From assembly GCA_021771715.1 (NCBI GenBank), contig JAETOO010000004.1, forward strand, positions 124,001-188,000: 64,000 nucleotides of DNA, given 5' to 3'. Made by a program: the position numbers and the translations under genes. Below are positions 23,568 through 30,778 of this stretch, in pieces. The notes under the pieces are model-generated. The model did not search any database. It saw nothing but the letters and a program-made list of their open reading frames with translations, and was not told the DNA's origin. The first letter of the stretch is position 1; each line of letters starts with the position of its first letter. Origin of the DNA: Oscillospiraceae bacterium (GTDB taxonomy: Bacteria > Bacillota > Clostridia > Lachnospirales > Lachnospiraceae).

Positions 23568-23877
23568 ACTCTGGTATACTGGGGGTGTGGTTTGGGTAAG
23601 CCGGACGAGAAGATTGCCGATCCGTCTGAAGGCTCCGAATCGCTCGTCTACAAGTACTAAGGCCTCAGAAGGCCTGCGCATCTGCCGCTGGCAACTCGGA
23701 AAATGTGCCGAATGCACATTTTCCTCAGACAGGGCCAGCTAAAAATCCTGCAAGAAAGCAGGATTTTTACAGATGCTCCGGCCTTCTGAGACCTAAGTAC
23801 TTGTAAAGACTCGCTAAAGTCGCGTTCAGACGGATCGGCAATCTTCTCTGACGGTGGCTGACTGAACTGTAACATGG
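23568..23877. repeat. Palindromic structured repeat, copy 1
   Basis: The core runs 23607–23848 (242 bp). A perfect 24-bp inverted repeat forms its ends (GAGAAGATTGCCG... and its complement). Inside are further paired blocks (GCTCG/CGAGC-like, GTACTAAGGCCTCAGAAGG with its partner, GCATCTG/CAGATGC, GCTGGC/GCCAGC) and two local hairpins: AAAATGTGC/GCACATTTT and TAAAAATCCTGC/GCAGGATTTTTA. Weaker similarity extends to about 23568 and 23877. A second copy in the opposite orientation lies at 30485–30778. No plausible protein is encoded. The rest of the gap 23430–24009 holds no gene. Confidence 0.88.
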
Positions 23878-23935
23878 TTATAGGAATCACGCAGATGGTC
23901 CGTACAAAAAGGATGTGCAGTAGTGTATTCTTGCT

Positions 23936-23954
23936 GGACATCCGGTAGATGTCC
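23936..23954 (+). promoter_or_regulatory. Small inverted repeat upstream of the GH3 gene
   Basis: GGACATC-CGGTA-GATGTCC, a perfect 7-bp palindrome 56 bases before the GH3 start. It could be an operator or a leader hairpin; no convincing promoter was found beside it. Confidence 0.4.
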
Positions 23955-24009
23955 GTTTAGGAAGAATCAAAAATACCCGCTCTATGCGGTGATATAAGGA
24001 GGAATATCT

Positions 24010-26184
24010 ATGAACAGAGAGGAAGCAAGAAAGAAGGCGGAGGCGCTTGTCGCGCAGATGACGCTTGAGGAGAAGGCCAGCCAGCTGCGCTATGATGCGC
24101 CGGCGATCAAGCGGCTCAATGTCCCTGCCTACAACTGGTGGAATGAGGGGCTTCACGGGGTGGCGAGAGCCGGGCAGGCGACTGTATTTCCGCAGGCGAT
24201 CGGAGTTGCGGCGACCTTCGACCCGGAGCTCGTGGGCGAAATGGCGGACGTGATCGCGACCGAGGGCCGCGCGAAGTACAATGCCTACTCCGCGCAGGGC
24301 GACCGCGATATCTACAAGGGGCTGACCTTCTGGTCCCCGAATGTCAACATTTTCCGCGACCCGCGCTGGGGGCGCGGCCATGAGACGTACGGCGAGGATC
24401 CCTTCCTGACCAGCCGCCTCGGCGTCGCGTTTGTCGAGGGGCTGCAGGGCGACGGCGAGACCATGAAGGCCGCTGCCTGTGCAAAGCACTTTGCTGTCCA
24501 CTCCGGCCCGGAGGCTGTTCGCCACGAGTTTAACGCTGAGGCGAGCGCGAAGGATATGGAGGAGACCTACCTCCCGGCTTTCCAGGCGCTCGTGGAGGAG
24601 GCCGGCGTCGAGGCCGTCATGGGCGCGTACAACCGCACAAACGGCGAGCCGTGCTGCGGCAGCCCGTCCCTGCAGAAAAAACTGCGCGGCGAGTGGGGCT
24701 TCGAGGGCCACTTTGTTTCCGACTGCTGGGCGATTAAGGACTTCCACGAGAATCACCACGTCACCAACAACGCGATGGAGTCCGCAGCGCTCGCGATCAA
24801 CAACGGGACGGATGTGAACTGCGGCAATACCTACCTCCACATCTTAAATGCGTACAAGCACGGGCTTGTGACCGAGGAGACGATCACGCAGTCCGTCGTC
24901 CGGCTGTTCACGGCGCGCTACCTGCTCGGCCTGTTCGACGGCAGCGAGTACGACTCCATCCCGTACCTGGAGGTCGAGTCGGCCGAGCACCTGGCCCTGT
25001 CCCGGAAGGCAGCCGAGGAGAGCTTTGTCCTCCTGAAAAATGACGGCATCCTGCCGCTTGACAAGTCTGCCTTAAAGACCGTCGGCGTGATCGGACCGAA
25101 CGCAAACAGCCGCGCCGCATTGATCGGAAATTACCACGGAACCGCTTCCCGGTACATCACGGTGCTCGAGGGCATCCAGGACTATCTCGGGGCTGATGTG
25201 CGCGTCCTGACCTCGATCGGCTGCGAGCTCACAAAGGAAAAGACGGAGAATCTCGCGTACGCCGGCGACCGCCTCTCGGAGGCCAGAATCGTCGCCGAGA
25301 ACAGCGATGTCGTACTGCTGTGCGTCGGCCTCGACGAGACGCTCGAGGGCGAGGAGGGAGATACCGGCAACAGCTACTACTCCGGCGACAAGGGCGACCT
25401 GCAGCTGCCGAAGGTGCAGCGCGATCTGATCGAGGCCGTCACCGGGACCGGCAAGCCGGTTGTACTGCTTCTGATGGCGGGCAGCGACATTGACCTCTCC
25501 TGCGCAGCCTCCTGCAACGCGATCCTCCAGCTCTGGTACCCGGGCAGCGAGGGCGGCAAGGCGGCGGCGCGCGTCCTCTTCGGGGAAGTGTCACCTTCCG
25601 GAAAGCTCCCCGTTACCTTCTATGAGTCATTGGATGAGCTTCCGGAGTTCACCGACTACCGCATGGCAGGACGCACCTACCGTTACATGGACGGCGCCGC
25701 ACAGTACCCGTTCGGCTACGGCCTGACGTACGCGGACGTCACTGTCACCGATGCGAAGCTGGTCGAGACCGCTGCCGAGACGCCGTGTGCCGGCGCAGCT
25801 GCCTCCTGGCGCGGCGCCGCTAACGGACATGCGGCAGACGCAGACCGCTACGGCTGCGGTGTCACCGTGGAAGTGACCGCGACCAACAGCGGCAGCTGCG
25901 CGACAGACGAGGTGCTGCAGGTCTACGTCAAGAACCTCGACTCCGCGGCTGCGGTGAAGAACCCGTCTCTCGGCGGCTTCCTGCGCATCCACCTCGCAGC
26001 CGGCGAGACAGGCACGTTCCGCGTCGCCGTCTCTCCGCTCGCTTTCACCGTCGTCGACGAGGACGGCCATCGCTCCGAGGCAAAGGGCGACCGCCACACC
26101 CTCTACGTCGGCACCAGCCAGCCCGACGCAAAGAGCGCCGCACTGACCGGAAAGAAGCCGGTCGAGATTGGCTATACCCGCTGA
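24010..26184 (+). CDS. Glycoside hydrolase family 3, beta-xylosidase/beta-glucosidase type
   Basis: 724-aa cytoplasmic exo-glycosidase (no signal peptide). The TIM-barrel domain (about 1–300) has NWWNEGLHGVARAG, DPRWGRGHETYGEDP, AKHFAVHSGPE and the nucleophile Asp238 in FVSDCWAI. The alpha/beta sandwich (about 340–560) and the C-terminal fibronectin-III-like domain (about 565–724) follow. The NWWNEGLHG motif and overall order are closest to bacterial xylan-acting GH3 enzymes, so xylo-oligosaccharides are a likely substrate. An Ala/Gly-rich insert at about 590–620 interrupts the last domain. AAGGAGG precedes the ATG. Confidence 0.92.
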   Translation: MNREEARKKAEALVAQMTLEEKASQLRYDAPAIKRLNVPAYNWWNEGLHGVARAGQATVFPQAIGVAATFDPELVGEMADVIATEGRAKYNAYSAQGDRDIYKGLTFWSPNVNIFRDPRWGRGHETYGEDPFLTSRLGVAFVEGLQGDGETMKAAACAKHFAVHSGPEAVRHEFNAEASAKDMEETYLPAFQALVEEAGVEAVMGAYNRTNGEPCCGSPSLQKKLRGEWGFEGHFVSDCWAIKDFHENHHVTNNAMESAALAINNGTDVNCGNTYLHILNAYKHGLVTEETITQSVVRLFTARYLLGLFDGSEYDSIPYLEVESAEHLALSRKAAEESFVLLKNDGILPLDKSALKTVGVIGPNANSRAALIGNYHGTASRYITVLEGIQDYLGADVRVLTSIGCELTKEKTENLAYAGDRLSEARIVAENSDVVLLCVGLDETLEGEEGDTGNSYYSGDKGDLQLPKVQRDLIEAVTGTGKPVVLLLMAGSDIDLSCAASCNAILQLWYPGSEGGKAAARVLFGEVSPSGKLPVTFYESLDELPEFTDYRMAGRTYRYMDGAAQYPFGYGLTYADVTVTDAKLVETAAETPCAGAAASWRGAANGHAADADRYGCGVTVEVTATNSGSCATDEVLQVYVKNLDSAAAVKNPSLGGFLRIHLAAGETGTFRVAVSPLAFTVVDEDGHRSEAKGDRHTLYVGTSQPDAKSAALTGKKPVEIGYTR

Positions 26185-26248
26185 GTTACTTACATACCCG
26201 CAAGTGACTGGCTAAGTCCCCTGCGGGTATGTACAGATATCCGGAAAC

Positions 26249-26305
26249 GGCGTCTTCGTCCTCTTCGCATAAGGAAGTGAGCGGACGGAGACGCCTCTTT
26301 TCTTG
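26249..26305 (+). terminator. Intrinsic terminator of the GH3 gene
   Basis: GGCGTCTTCGTCC and GGACGGAGACGCC pair at 12 of 13 positions and are followed by TCTTTTCTT. A second perfect 12-bp hairpin (26191–26202 with 26222–26233) lies just before it but has no T tract. Confidence 0.75.
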
Positions 26306-26403
26306 CAATCCGAATCTAATTTAATTATTTTTTCTATTTACATCTCTTTGTTTTTCATATATGATAAGATATCATCTCAGGATATAGAAACCAGAATGCA
26401 TAC

Positions 26404-26432
26404 TTGCAAATACCAAGAGCCATCACTATAAT
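26404..26432 (+). promoter_or_regulatory. Predicted promoter of the 56-aa small gene
   Basis: TTGCAA, 17-base spacer, TATAAT, 37 bases before the GTG start. Confidence 0.75.
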
Positions 26433-26469
26433 AAAGATATCTTATAGAAGTGAAAGGCGGTGAAAGAAG

Positions 26470-26640
26470 GTGGAAGAAACGAACAGCAATGAAATGATCG
26501 GAATCTACATGGACACTTACAAAGAATTACTGCGACTCAAACATGCACCGGACAAAGACGCCGAAATCGCATTTCAGTTGAAAATGATTCTCGCAAAGCT
26601 GGAGGCCTGCGGAGTTGTAACTGAGAATTTTGAAAAGTGA
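26470..26640 (+). CDS. Small acidic hypothetical protein, 56 aa
   Basis: A short reading frame with a GTG start, GAAAGGCGG about 9 bases upstream, a consensus promoter 37 bases upstream and a strong hairpin 25 bases past the stop. The predicted protein is soluble, rich in Glu, Lys and Leu, and helical throughout (IYMDTYKELLRLKHAP and IAFQLKMILAKLEACG as two amphipathic helices), compatible with a helical hairpin. One Cys is present. I do not recognise the family. It lies alone between GH3 and leuS. Confidence 0.7.
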   Translation: MEETNSNEMIGIYMDTYKELLRLKHAPDKDAEIAFQLKMILAKLEACGVVTENFEK

Positions 26641-26664
26641 AACCTGTTTTGTATGCATTCACAC

Positions 26665-26710
26665 AGAAGGGGCTGTGAAAAATGAGGGAATCATTTTCAC
26701 AGCCCCTTCT
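26665..26710. terminator. Hairpin between the small gene and leuS
   Basis: About 20 bp of stem (AGAAGGGGCTGTGAAAA and complement, one bulged A). It is placed to serve both convergent genes. T tracts on either side are weak, so termination strength is uncertain. Confidence 0.6.
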
Positions 26711-26719
26711 CCTCTCTAT

Positions 26720-29122
26720 TTATTTGATCACAAGATTGACAATCTTATTCGGCACATAGATTTCTTTGACAACGTTCTTGCCCTCCATCAGCGCCGCGAT
26801 CTTCGCATCCGCTTTTGCGGTCGCGAGCGCGTCCTCCTTCGAGCAGCCGTTCGGGATCACGATCGTGGTCTTGAGCTTGCCGTTCACCTGCACGCCGATC
26901 TCGAGCTTCGCCTCGACGGTCTTCGCCTCGTCGTACTCCGGCCACTTCGCCAAGGACAGGAAGCCCTCGCCGCCGATGCTCTCCCAGATCTCCTCGCACA
27001 GATGCGGGGCAAACGGGCAGAGCAGCTTGATGAAGATCACCAGATCCTCCCGGCTGAGTTTTCCGGCCGCATAAATGTCGTTGATCAGCGTCATCAGGCA
27101 CGCGATCGCCGTGTTGAACTTCGTCGCTTCGATGTCGGAGCTGACCTTCTTGATCGCCTTGTGGAACTTTACCTCCATGTCCGGATCCACCGCCCCGTCG
27201 GTCACGAGATCCGTCAGGCCCGCCACTCGCTCGAGGAAGCGCTTGCAGCCCTTCACGGAGCTGTCATTCCACGGAGCCGCAGCGCCGTAGTCACCCATAA
27301 AGAGCACATACGTGCGCAGTGCATCCGCGCCGTACTCCTTCACGATGTCAAGCGGATCGACCACATTCCCCTTTGATTTGCTCATCTTATCGCCGTCCGG
27401 CCCGAGGATCAGGCCCTGGATCGAGCGCTTCGCGTACGGCTCCTTCGTGTTCACCACGCCGATGTCGTACAGAAAACGGTGCCAGAACCGGGAGTAGATC
27501 ATATGTCTGGTCACATGCTCCATGCCGCCGTTGTACCAGTCTACCGGCATCCAGTAGTTCAGCTTGTCCATCGCCGCGAGCTCATCGTCATTGTGCGGAT
27601 CAATGTAGCGCAGGAAGTACCACGACGATCCCGCCCACTGCGGCATCGTGTCCGTCTCGCGCTTCGCATCGTGGCCACACTTCGGACACTTGCAGTTCAC
27701 ATACGACTCGATCCGCGCGAGCGGAGACTCGCCGTCCTCACCCGGCTGGAAGTCCTCGACATCCGGCAGACGGAGCGGCAGCTCCTCATACGGCACCGCG
27801 ACATCGCCGCACACCGGGCAGTGCACAATCGGAATCGGCTCGCCCCAGTATCTCTGACGGTTGAACGCCCAGTCCTTCATCTTATACTGCACGCCTGCCT
27901 CACCGATGCCCTTCTTCTCGATCTCCTCGAGCATCCGGTGAATCGAATCCTTCTTATTTGTATAGCCGTTCAGGAAATCGGAATTGATCATCTCGCCGTC
28001 GCCCGCGTAGGCTTCCTTCGAGATGTCGCCGCCCTGGATGACCTGGATGATGTCAATGCCAAACTTCTTCGCAAAATCATAGTCTCTCTGGTCGTGCGCC
28101 GGCACTGCCATGATCGCTCCGGTACCGTAGCCCATCATGACATAGTCCGCGATGTAGATCGGGATCTGCTTTCCGTTCACCGGATTGATCGCGGTCAGGC
28201 CGTCGATGCACACGCCGGTCTTGTCCTTGACGAGCTGCGTCCGCTCGAACTCCGTCTTCTTTGCGCACTCCGCCCGGTATGCACAGAGCGCGTCGTAATT
28301 CGCGATGCGGTCCTTGTACTTGTCGATCAGCGGGTGCTCCGGCGCGATGACCATGAAGGTCACGCCGAACAGCGTATCCGGCCGCGTCGTGTAGATGCGC
28401 AGCTGATCCTCAATCCCCTCGACCGAGAAATTCACAAAGGCGCCGGTCGACTTTCCGATCCAGTTCACCTGCTGCTGCTTGACATTTGCCGGGTAGTCTA
28501 CCTTCTCCAGCCCCTCGAGCAGCTTGTCCGCATACTCGGTGATCCGCAGATACCAGACATCCTTCGACTTCTGGATGACATCGCTGTGGCAGATGTCGCA
28601 CTTTCCGCCCTGGCTGTCCTCATTCGAGAGGACGACCTTGCACGACGGGCAGTAGTTCACGAGCGTCTTGTCGCGAAATACGAGGCCGTGCTCAAACATT
28701 TTCAGGAAAATCCACTGCGTCCACTTATAGTAATCCGCATCCGTCGTGTCAATCACGCGGCTCCAGTCAAACGAGAAGCCGACGCTCTTGAGCTGCTCGG
28801 AAAACTTTCGGATATTCTTGTCCGTGATGATTCTCGGATGGGTCGACGTCTTGATCGCGTAATTCTCCGTCGGCAGGCCGAACGCGTCGAAGCCGATCGG
28901 GAAGAGCACATTGTAGCCCTCCATACGACGTTTCCGCGCCACCACCTCGATACTGGAGTACGCCTTGATGTGTCCGACGTGCATCCCCGCCCCGCTCGGA
29001 TACGGGAACTCGACAAGGCCGTAGAATTTCGGCTTCTCCCCGCCGTCTACCGCCTTGAAAATCTCCTGCTCGGCCCATTTTTTCTGCCATTTGGGCTCAA
29101 TCTTTTTAAACTCGTGTCTCAT
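26720..29122 (-). CDS. leuS: Leucyl-tRNA synthetase
   Basis: Class I aminoacyl-tRNA synthetase, 800 aa, charging tRNA-Leu. The HIGH motif appears as HVGH in YPSGAGMHVGHIKAYS and the KMSKS motif as DKMSKSKGNVVDP. The zinc-like cysteine clusters (CPSCKVVL...CDICH and CPVCG...CPKCGH) and an editing domain (about 220–400, YTTRPDTLFGVTFMVIAPEHP) are present. The ATG at 29122 gives the standard start RHEFKKIEPKWQ and has GGAGGAA upstream; the frame is open further 5' but without the family's sequence. The leader has a structured segment (29229–29277). Confidence 0.97.
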   Translation of the reverse strand: MRHEFKKIEPKWQKKWAEQEIFKAVDGGEKPKFYGLVEFPYPSGAGMHVGHIKAYSSIEVVARKRRMEGYNVLFPIGFDAFGLPTENYAIKTSTHPRIITDKNIRKFSEQLKSVGFSFDWSRVIDTTDADYYKWTQWIFLKMFEHGLVFRDKTLVNYCPSCKVVLSNEDSQGGKCDICHSDVIQKSKDVWYLRITEYADKLLEGLEKVDYPANVKQQQVNWIGKSTGAFVNFSVEGIEDQLRIYTTRPDTLFGVTFMVIAPEHPLIDKYKDRIANYDALCAYRAECAKKTEFERTQLVKDKTGVCIDGLTAINPVNGKQIPIYIADYVMMGYGTGAIMAVPAHDQRDYDFAKKFGIDIIQVIQGGDISKEAYAGDGEMINSDFLNGYTNKKDSIHRMLEEIEKKGIGEAGVQYKMKDWAFNRQRYWGEPIPIVHCPVCGDVAVPYEELPLRLPDVEDFQPGEDGESPLARIESYVNCKCPKCGHDAKRETDTMPQWAGSSWYFLRYIDPHNDDELAAMDKLNYWMPVDWYNGGMEHVTRHMIYSRFWHRFLYDIGVVNTKEPYAKRSIQGLILGPDGDKMSKSKGNVVDPLDIVKEYGADALRTYVLFMGDYGAAAPWNDSSVKGCKRFLERVAGLTDLVTDGAVDPDMEVKFHKAIKKVSSDIEATKFNTAIACLMTLINDIYAAGKLSREDLVIFIKLLCPFAPHLCEEIWESIGGEGFLSLAKWPEYDEAKTVEAKLEIGVQVNGKLKTTIVIPNGCSKEDALATAKADAKIAALMEGKNVVKEIYVPNKIVNLVIK

Positions 29123-29228
29123 GCTATTCCTCCATCGTCCGCGCCAGGGCGACACCGCACCCGGCTTGGAATCTGTCTCTTCTATATTATATAAGGTTGT
29201 GCTCCCGCTTCGCAGGCACCACCACGTA

Positions 29229-29277
29229 TGAAAGCCACGGATTGCTCCGTGCTTCGCACTCCCGCAACTGGCTTTCA
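29229..29277 (-). ncRNA. Structured segment in the leuS leader
   Basis: TGAAAGCCA/TGGCTTTCA (9 bp) closes a small fold that also contains CGGA/TCCG and TGC/GCA hairpins. It lies about 107–155 bases upstream of leuS. It lacks a T-box motif, so a tRNA-Leu-sensing leader is not supported. It could be a processed or regulatory leader, or the 3' end structure of the upstream AraC gene. Confidence 0.35.
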
Positions 29278-29296
29278 CAATAAATCAGCTTTCATT

Positions 29297-30316
29297 CTAA
29301 TCCAATGACTGTGGTTTGTCAATGCGGTTTCTCGCCTTCGAGGGCGGCTGGCCGTACTTTTTGCGGAATGCCTTGCTCAGATGAAACTCATCATAAAACC
29401 CAAAGTTCAGCGCCGCCTCGTGCAGCTTTGCATCCGGCTGACTGCGCAGGAACTCGCGCACCATCTCAAGCTTCAGATCCATCTGAAACGCGGAAAACGT
29501 CATCCCGCACGCCCTCTGAAACCGGTTGTTCAGGGTGCGCGGACAGATATAAAACTGATCCGCCATCTCCTTCGCCCGGTAAAACATCTGCGGATTCGAC
29601 GAGACCCTCTCCCGCACCGCCGCCACAATCGGATCCGTCTTTGCCGCCCGGGACCCGCAGTCGGCCTGCGCGCCGATCAGCTCCAGCAAAAACAAGTTGA
29701 ACAGCAGCGTCAGCCGTTCTTCCCGCAGCGGCTCCTGCGACCAGTACGATGCGATCAGCTCCTGAAAACACCGGCGCACCTGCGGCGCGTGCTGACAGTG
29801 GACAAGCGTAGCACTCTCAAACAAGGGGGACGGCTGTCGCGGCGCTTCCATTTCATCCATGAACGTTTCTGTTCGGATCACATGCTCCTGCGAAGATTCC
29901 ACGACCATCTCCAAATTTCCGGAATCCTGCTCCTTTGCGAAACGCATGCCCGCCTTCAAGTCTTCAGCTCTCTTCTTCTGTTCTCGCTCGCAAACTGGAC
30001 GCGGGTCTTCCTTCAAATCATCAGTGCACATCTTCTCTCGCTCACGCTCCGTCGGCTCCACATGGAAATACATGTGCCGGTTCCCCGCGCTGCACAATCT
30101 CTTCCCGTAATGATGTCTCCCCGCAGCGAGGATCAGCAGATCGTCCGTCCGCATCTCATACCGCTGCCCCTCCTCCCAGATCTCCCACTCCCCGTCCAGC
30201 ACATACAGAAAGTCATGCTCCTCCATCACCCGGTCCGGATGCACCATCCCGTTCACCGCCGTCGTATAATTCGCTCCCGTAATTTTCCGCGGAGCCATTT
30301 TCTCAATGTATAGCAT
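29297..30316 (-). CDS. AraC-family regulator with cupin domain and variable linker
   Basis: 339-aa regulator. The cupin sensor (about 1–105) includes VMEEHDFLYVLDGEWEIW, DDLLILAAGRHHYG and YFHVEP. The DNA-binding domain (about 235–335) has PQMFYRAKEMADQFYICPRT and LHEAALNFGFYDEFHLSKAF. Between them is a long charged stretch rich in Glu, Lys and Arg. The start at 30316 is preferred (GGGAGG 8 bases upstream). It is divergent from GH127, with a structured repeat copy between, and probably regulates it. Confidence 0.88.
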   Translation of the reverse strand: MLYIEKMAPRKITGANYTTAVNGMVHPDRVMEEHDFLYVLDGEWEIWEEGQRYEMRTDDLLILAAGRHHYGKRLCSAGNRHMYFHVEPTEREREKMCTDDLKEDPRPVCEREQKKRAEDLKAGMRFAKEQDSGNLEMVVESSQEHVIRTETFMDEMEAPRQPSPLFESATLVHCQHAPQVRRCFQELIASYWSQEPLREERLTLLFNLFLLELIGAQADCGSRAAKTDPIVAAVRERVSSNPQMFYRAKEMADQFYICPRTLNNRFQRACGMTFSAFQMDLKLEMVREFLRSQPDAKLHEAALNFGFYDEFHLSKAFRKKYGQPPSKARNRIDKPQSLD

Positions 30317-30484
30317 CCTCGTCGCCTCCCTATTTGCGCCAATAGCGCCAGAATGTTCCGTTCCCACCCGTATACATCCAGTTTCCCTGCCCCTATCCCT
30401 AGCGCATCCCTTTCCATATTTTACATGCGATCTTCCATTATGGCAATGGTTTCTTCCCCCTCCTCCTGCTAGAATATAGCTCAC

Positions 30485-30778
30485 ATGGTTACCGTTCAGC
30501 CAGCCACTGCCAGAGAAGATTGCGAGACTGTCAGAAAGCGACTATCGTGAGTCTTTACAAGCACTTAGGTCTCAGAAGGTCGGAGCATCTGTAAAAATTC
30601 TGCCTTCCGGCAGAATTTTTAGCTGGCCCTGTCTGAGCAAAATGTGCATCAGGCACATTTTGTGAGTTGCCAGCGGCAGATGCGCAGGCCTTTTGAGACC
30701 TTAGTGCTTGTAGACGAGCGATTCGGAGCTTTCCGACGGCCTCGCAATCTTCTCGTCCGGGTCGACTGAATTGTACCA
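30485..30778. repeat. Palindromic structured repeat, copy 2 (inverted)
   Basis: The core 30513–30754 is 242 bp, exactly the length of copy 1, in opposite orientation. Sequence differences fall in pairs that keep the stems. The outer arm is GCGAG..GTC.GAAAGC here against GCCGATCCGTCTGAA in copy 1, changed on both sides. The AAAAATCCTGC stem became AAAAATTCTGCC, with the opposite strand changed to match. The end at 30778 is only about 16 bases before the GH127 ribosome site, so the element must lie inside or upstream of that transcript's leader. The remaining gap 30317–30484 holds no gene. Confidence 0.88.

Follow-up and report, generated by a model that had tools for sequence, protein, structure and literature searches.

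A palindromic MITE-like family in a Lachnospiraceae genome, with IS66-like ends and strongly covarying hairpin stems

Two palindromes and the family to which they belong

The window, a 64,000-nucleotide stretch of contig JAETOO010000004.1 (positions 124,001 to 188,000; assembly GCA_021771715.1, Oscillospiraceae bacterium), contains two long palindromes in opposite orientation, both of which sit between divergent genes. An earlier note had placed two such palindromes here with cores of 242 bp; their positions and inverse orientation are borne out by the sequence and by alignment, and the 242-bp cores fall inside the aligned 247-nt cores, but the element itself is longer, at approximately 290 bp. 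The features are as follows.

23584..23873, + strand: copy 1, whole element, ~290 bp, delimited by alignment to young copies
23603..23849, + strand: copy 1, aligned hairpin core, 247 nt, with a long outer stem, asymmetric internal loops and two inner hairpins
23650..23804, + strand: copy 1, inner 155-nt part; covariance model R1, 178.8 bits (copy 1 is in the training set)
23861..23873, + strand: copy 1, right terminal inverted repeat ACTGAACTGTAAC
30488..30777, - strand: copy 2, whole element, 290 bp, with both ends recognisable (GTTACCGTTCAGCC and GGTACAATTCAGTC)
30512..30758, - strand: copy 2, aligned hairpin core, 247 nt
30557..30711, - strand: copy 2, inner 155-nt part; model R1, 179.6 bits (copy 2 is in the training set)

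The outer ends of the window copies are partly decayed. At the outer left end of copy 1, 8 of 17 bases equal the young consensus (by eye), and its right end, CTGAACTGTAAC, is intact; the 8-mers flanking copy 2 still agree at only 3 of 8 bases. Folded as 291-nt stretches with short flanks, copy 1 reaches -161.5 kcal/mol (z = -14.5) and copy 2 -147.4 kcal/mol (z = -12.7); none of 200 shuffles folded as well. In copy 1, 88 of 90 pairs are Watson-Crick and one is A·C; in copy 2, 86 of 90 are Watson-Crick, with two G·T and two A·C. The aligned cores have 31 differences. That these differences are paired, as had been claimed, is mostly right: six pairs changed on both sides and are Watson-Crick in both copies, however three pairs changed on one side and three on both sides without being Watson-Crick in both; ten differing positions are unpaired. 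The reported change of hairpin AAAAATCCTGC to AAAAATTCTGCC, with a matching alteration of the partner strand, is correct in the sequence.

The source genome (G000; 4.18 Mb in 54 contigs) contains the family at 40 distinct places, with 40 candidates scored; a divergent copy used as the query returned the identical 40 places (again with 40 scored), and a pattern search together with a covariance model (64 scored) gave no place in G000 beyond these. Some of the 40 are halves, because six contig ends fall inside copies; incompleteness kept nine of the 40 (L020, L022, L023, L026 and L053-L057) out of the 36-row alignment. L002 and L051, the cores of which could not be mapped back base for base, are also absent from alignment A2, leaving it with 34 rows; alignment A1 comprises 32. 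The half copies L023, at the start of contig C5, and L055, at the end of C37, may be one copy split by the assembly because a 9-bp flank, TACGGTATA, is common to both; a short remnant with flank ACGGTATA adjoins L023. The right flanks of L017, L021, L051 and L004 display local tandem duplications of the outer arm or of the flank beside the element.

A BLAST search of the first relative set, scoring at most 12 candidates per genome, gave no matches in 59 other genomes. G069, of the same genus, holds a second population that is more diverged and for the most part fragmented, with 53 match rows of which five are nearly full-length; the covariance model of the inner 155 nt finds matches in four of 47 genomes of the genus, namely G000, G069, G024 and G004. 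Plasmids and phages gave no match to the family. The inner-hairpin pattern was not found in GTDB genome contigs or IMG/VR, a search that near records possibly lay outside and a negative that is weak evidence because the pattern misses the one-base-shorter loop of the G069 copies. Literature searches (MITEs with IS66, palindromic Lachnospiraceae MITEs, 8-bp IS66 MITEs) did not have the family among the matches listed, and no paper in the collection searched contained GTTACAGTTCAGCC.

For the 34 copies with both neighbours, the flanking genes are divergent in 14, tandem in 16 and convergent in 4; the window baseline for gene gaps of at least 60 bases is 8 divergent, 12 tandem and 7 convergent. 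The gene call is rough, and because frames overlapping a copy were skipped it cannot reveal an interrupted gene. This context suggests nothing that would point to a fixed regulatory role.

Terminal repeats, target duplications and a probable IS66-like transposase

Young copies span GTTACAGTTCAGCCAACCCGGACGAG to CTCTGGCAGTGGCTGGCTGAACTGTAAC with small variations, and carry terminal inverted repeats in the form of GTTACAGTTCAGCC-type ends on both sides; the element is non-coding, ~290 bp long and multi-copy, as is characteristic of a MITE. Full-length copy L012 is flanked by an exact 8-bp target duplication, TCGCCTGT (8/8); it is the one copy with an exact duplication among five full-length copies with both ends recognisable, the flanks of the others agreeing at 6/8 (L003), 5/8 (L011), 3/8 (L010) and 1/8 (L006) bases. 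Centre-less derivatives of 141, 124, 110 and 49 bp have exact duplications of their own (CCTCCGCT, CTCTTGAC, GAATTTTT and GATTTTTA), the derivatives with 8/8 being L057, L059, L061 and L074; another 110-bp derivative, L060, has a 7/8 duplication. Two 110-bp derivatives have one common deletion junction at different sites, and this form has probably itself moved; because the 110-bp forms combine the same junction with different sites and their own duplications, the inner hairpins are suggested to be dispensable for movement. The 49-bp form with its exact duplication hints that the ends alone may suffice, with deletion in place being possible. Across all collected loci, 17 of 75 listed end pairs have an 8/8 flank match and 8 of 75 have 7/8, in a list that includes overlapping and false pairings and against a chance of 1 in 65,536 for an 8-match.

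The palindromes are almost certainly a MITE family. The earlier note had offered a MITE-like element as one possibility and proposed an inspection of the flanks for target duplications; the former is supported by the terminal inverted repeats, the exact 8-bp duplications on young copies and derivatives, the copy number and the lack of a gene, and the latter uncovered the exact duplications on L012 and the four derivatives. What it had named as contrary evidence, an absence of other copies or differences that break pairing, was not encountered: 40 places are known and pairing is kept. A composite transposon formed by the two window copies was rejected, the outer flanks disagreeing by eye.

Other short elements with such features were seen. 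G000 contains a second MITE family of 185-287 bp with several hairpins and GTTACAGTTCAGCC-type ends with GCATGGCTGAACTGTAAC (G000:C41:7775-8061, C31:197338-197522, C42:68546-68730 and others; L068, L069, L079, L078); relatives carry ends similar to those of this second family. One uncultured Clostridiaceae MAG has palindromes as short as 30 and 32 bp, at L149 5730-5759 and L150 2636-2667 (GTAACAGTTCAG...CTGAACTGTTAC and similar), flanked by the exact 8-bp duplications GATAAAAT and AAGGATTT. The stretches L148 1587-1661 (75 bp) and L201 4860-5002 (143 bp), from Ruminococcus sp. MAG_3 and Faecalicatena contorta, have identical 14-base flanks, part of the inner hairpin having been lost or gained in place.

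IS66-family insertion sequences (PF03050 DDE_Tnp_IS66, NF033517) usually make an 8-bp target duplication. The exact end GTAACAGTTCAGCC lies 30 bp past the stop codon of C-terminal pieces of IS66-like transposases at L218 and L220, in two genomes; the stretches align without gaps (by eye). The transposase gene there is cut at the locus end or broken off, and none of the elements seen with exactly this end was intact. The complete element L146 measures 2267 bp, has ends GTTACTATTCAC and duplication ACTATTTT (8/8), and contains a 102-aa frame and a 520-aa IS66-like transposase; this transposase is divergent, scoring 140 bits against NF033517 (cut-off 180) and 41 bits against PF03050 (cut-off 23.1). 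Related ends surround IS66-like genes at L212 (GTTACTGTTCAG, flanks 2/8) and L214 (GTAACTATTCAG, flanks 3/8), and lie at both termini of the 3010-bp locus L209, which also holds an IS66-like gene. The ends of intact IS66-like elements are thus related to the MITE ends, not identical. The family resembles IS66-family insertion sequences in its same or near ends and in the 8-bp duplication seen for L146; it differs in that the MITEs carry no gene.

End GTWACAGTTCAGCC is present in 15 of 47 genomes of the genus, and GTDB genomes contain GTTACAGTTCAGCCATGC in 60 stretches, many of them labelled Lachnospiraceae or Clostridia (for example Faecalicatena contorta and Mobilisporobacter senegalensis); the few matches from other phyla may be chance. 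Relatives of the L146 transposase occur in 10 of 344 genomes of the order, at 13 loci, 12 of which have GTWACNRTTCA near the gene, versus three matches within control loci totalling 96,752 bp. Among 30 general PF03050 loci of the genus, a GTWACNRTTCA end is present at only three, and therefore the MITE-like ends belong to an IS66 subgroup; none of these 30 loci has GTTACAGTTCAGCC within two mismatches. The link to IS66 was at first doubted and was revived because of L146 and then L218 and L220.

No intact IS66-like parent was found in G000, which is 97.7% complete: it has one short PF03050 match below the cut-off, and no match to the L146 transposase at 1e-10. The short, weak IS66 transposase match L138 (G000:C41:203554-203646) is on the contig that also holds the window, and no GTTACAGTTCAGCC-type end is close to it. 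As G000 holds only this weak IS66 remnant, its copies are probably orphans now; an autonomous partner within the same genome is not required of an old MITE family. Two candidate parents were rejected: L084 (2585 bp) is an accidental end pair with other genes between, none of them recognised as a transposase by eye, and L199 is likewise accidental. We infer strongly that the MITEs were moved in trans by an IS66-like transposase recognising their ends, a reading considered very likely. Through this family, short palindromic repeats found in Lachnospiraceae and relatives are connected with an IS66-like transposase.

Covariation and mismatch balance of the stems

Across the 34 copies from two genomes, 96.6% of 3058 cells are paired, and 58 of 90 pairs have changes on both sides, a number reached by none of 500 shuffles; these counts support the proposal that the fold is maintained. 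When partners are slid by 1-3 columns pairing falls to 35-44%. Both controls lean towards the structure: the sliding one because the structure was derived from these very sequences, the shuffles because the copies are related.

The mismatches are balanced in kind. Among 3238 cells from 36 copies, 3081 are Watson-Crick, 51 G·T, 61 A·C and 45 other; the RNase P control, aligned and folded alike from 24 genomes of the same genus (24 of 30 returned loci used), has 311 G·T versus 7 A·C. In the extended stems of the relatives, with five sequences each, G004 has 17 G·T and 17 A·C and G024 has 18 G·T and 15 A·C; a model-fitted alignment of all 12 G004/G024 matches has 4 G·T and 18 A·C. The consensus fold of the opposite strand gives 122 G·T and 48 A·C, a mild bias that is far from the RNase P control, and a weak wobble bias on that strand may exist. 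A fold kept as RNA on the strand read should give counts like those of RNase P. As there is no RNase P-like excess of G·T over A·C, the covariation apparently does not come from selection on a one-strand RNA; pairing is likely kept at the DNA level instead. Paired stem changes are commonly taken as all but proving a functional RNA, and this family displays very strong covariation without an RNA-like strand preference in its mismatches; counts of G·T versus A·C would be a cheap filter for covariation screens.

The kinds of substitution are informative as well. Parsimony on the tree gives 172 double Watson-Crick changes, 86 transition-type and 86 transversion-type; at unpaired columns there are 74 transition-type versus 58 transversion-type changes, a small gap to the doubles. 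In the 18 closest pairs, double changes are 79 transition-type and 79 transversion-type, one-sided stem changes 84 transitions versus 21 transversions, and unpaired changes 59 versus 38; the ratio for double changes differs from that for one-sided changes (Fisher p = 7e-7) and not significantly from that for unpaired ones (Fisher p = 0.09). Double changes are modestly clustered, with 20 neighbouring in the 16 closest pairs versus 13.1 under the null (sd 2.7; 2/500), and one-sided changes are not (7 versus 8.7). The 1:1 ratio and the clustering are better explained by arm-to-arm copying than by independent mutations on the two sides that pass through tolerated intermediates. Change is also uneven along the element: the inner hairpin with its A- and T-tracts has 19 changes in 24 columns versus 233 in 38 columns of the outer stem.

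Origin of the paired changes

Published work describes template switching as giving rise to compensatory changes that are instantaneous (PMC8794818, and likewise PMC8604942). It is hypothesized that the element folds back during replication or transposition; one arm could then be copied from the other through template switching or hairpin-templated repair. This would alter the two arms together, in short tracts and with no G·U intermediates, and inserted copies would afterwards decay neutrally, so that G·T and A·C mismatches become equally numerous. Template copying is given even chances of being the chief source of the paired changes. Selection is suggested to act on parts of the fold too, because bulges and loops are conserved; asymmetric bulges persist in four genomes, and template copying alone would erase them. 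The joint reading of a MITE family with IS66-like mobilisation and a hairpin paired at the DNA level is considered fairly probable, and the many copies are a natural data set for separating selection from template-switch correction.

The available text of PMC8794818 describes hairpins maintained by template switching with simultaneous Watson-Crick to Watson-Crick stem changes, which the present family resembles; for its RNA genes, 78.5% of two-step changes pass via G-U and 61% of instantaneous ones are transition-type, whereas in the present family, a mobile DNA element, 50% of the doubles are transition-type and G·U is not in excess.

A rather less probable alternative is that the hairpin is a folded DNA recognised by a protein, with selection keeping the pairing and with bulges and loops giving specificity. 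The hairpins of G004 and G024 are longer than those of G000, and their stems and ends are different; single-sequence folds from G000, G004 and G024 nevertheless all keep a 9-bp and a 4-bp helix with a bulge of 2-3 nt between them on the 3' strand, and four genomes have the motif ACTC-stem-loop ending GAT-stem-TC(A/G)(A/G)ACA despite differing stems (by eye). The ends around this hairpin vary, being GTTACAG in G000 and G069 and different in G004 and G024, and the lack of a wobble preference also speaks for this alternative. However, the two 110-bp derivatives with one junction have probably moved without inner hairpins, and two independent mutations under selection should favour transitions beyond the observed 1:1. 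Integron attC sites are recognised as folded single strands; the family may be analogous, its pairing and bulges being conserved and its stem sequence free.

Extended further, the idea becomes a doubtful one: a folded-DNA module of ~240-370 bp whose shape is what is recognised and which travels in two or more unrelated kinds of mobile element, with stems free and bulges and loops fixed. The candidate module is single inside IS66-type ends in G000 and G069; in G024 it would be an inverted pair with other ends, L228 (G024:C166) having two hairpins in inverted orientation around an AT-rich spacer. If true, the module would be a DNA counterpart of a structured RNA, with stems evolving by whole-pair changes. 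L228 and, from G004, L223, L232, L236 and L240 are large elements in which one or two long hairpins border an AT-rich spacer, and their ends are TTCGTGTTTAG or GGGCTTT(A/C)GTTA; no clear target duplication was seen for these five by eye.

Returning to the palindromes themselves, a structured RNA, bidirectional terminator or insulator is improbable, even though selection on both strands could hide a G·U signature. The inner hairpin with its flanking A- and T-tracts (AAAAATCCTGC...GCAGGATTTTT) is among the most constant parts, terminator-like hairpins lie just inside the ends of IS66-like elements (by eye), and the opposite-strand fold has the 122 versus 48 G·T bias. Against this stand the 51 G·T to 61 A·C of the family, set beside 311 to 7 in RNase P, the T-tract broken (GATTTC) in most G024 copies, and the mixed gene contexts (14 divergent, 16 tandem, 4 convergent); a terminator scan was empty in both cores, though its rule wants a T-run after the stem. 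The structured RNA class raised by the earlier note has no Rfam match at the gathering score in the window and lacks the G·U excess over A·C that RNase P displays. Its other suggestion, an IS200/IS605-type element moved as single-stranded DNA by a Y1 transposase, is highly improbable: the elements are palindromic and gene-free, and the G004/G024 relatives have no clear target duplication by eye, but IS200/IS605 elements are not known to have terminal inverted repeats or target duplications, and the G000 family has both, the latter exact and of 8 bp, as well as ends in common with IS66-like elements, whose transposase is the matching one.

The MITE family can be set beside bacterial MITEs with long stem-loops, such as YPAL/RU-2 of Yersinia, ERIC and Correia/NEMIS (PMC2229807, PMC2267715). 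Judged by the available portions of these papers, it is similar in being short, non-coding, repeated and folded into a stable stem-loop; YPAL duplications are of 3-26 bp and most other such MITEs are TA-ended (PMC2229807), unlike the IS66-type ends, 8-bp duplication, branched hairpin and extensive wobble-free covariation seen here. The family was not found named in the literature or Rfam searches made, and the preservation of a hairpin at the DNA level is unusual. A minor feature of the left arm (window 23603-23660) is an open frame, probably a by-product of the conserved bases, ending at a TAA/TAG that nearly all copies have.
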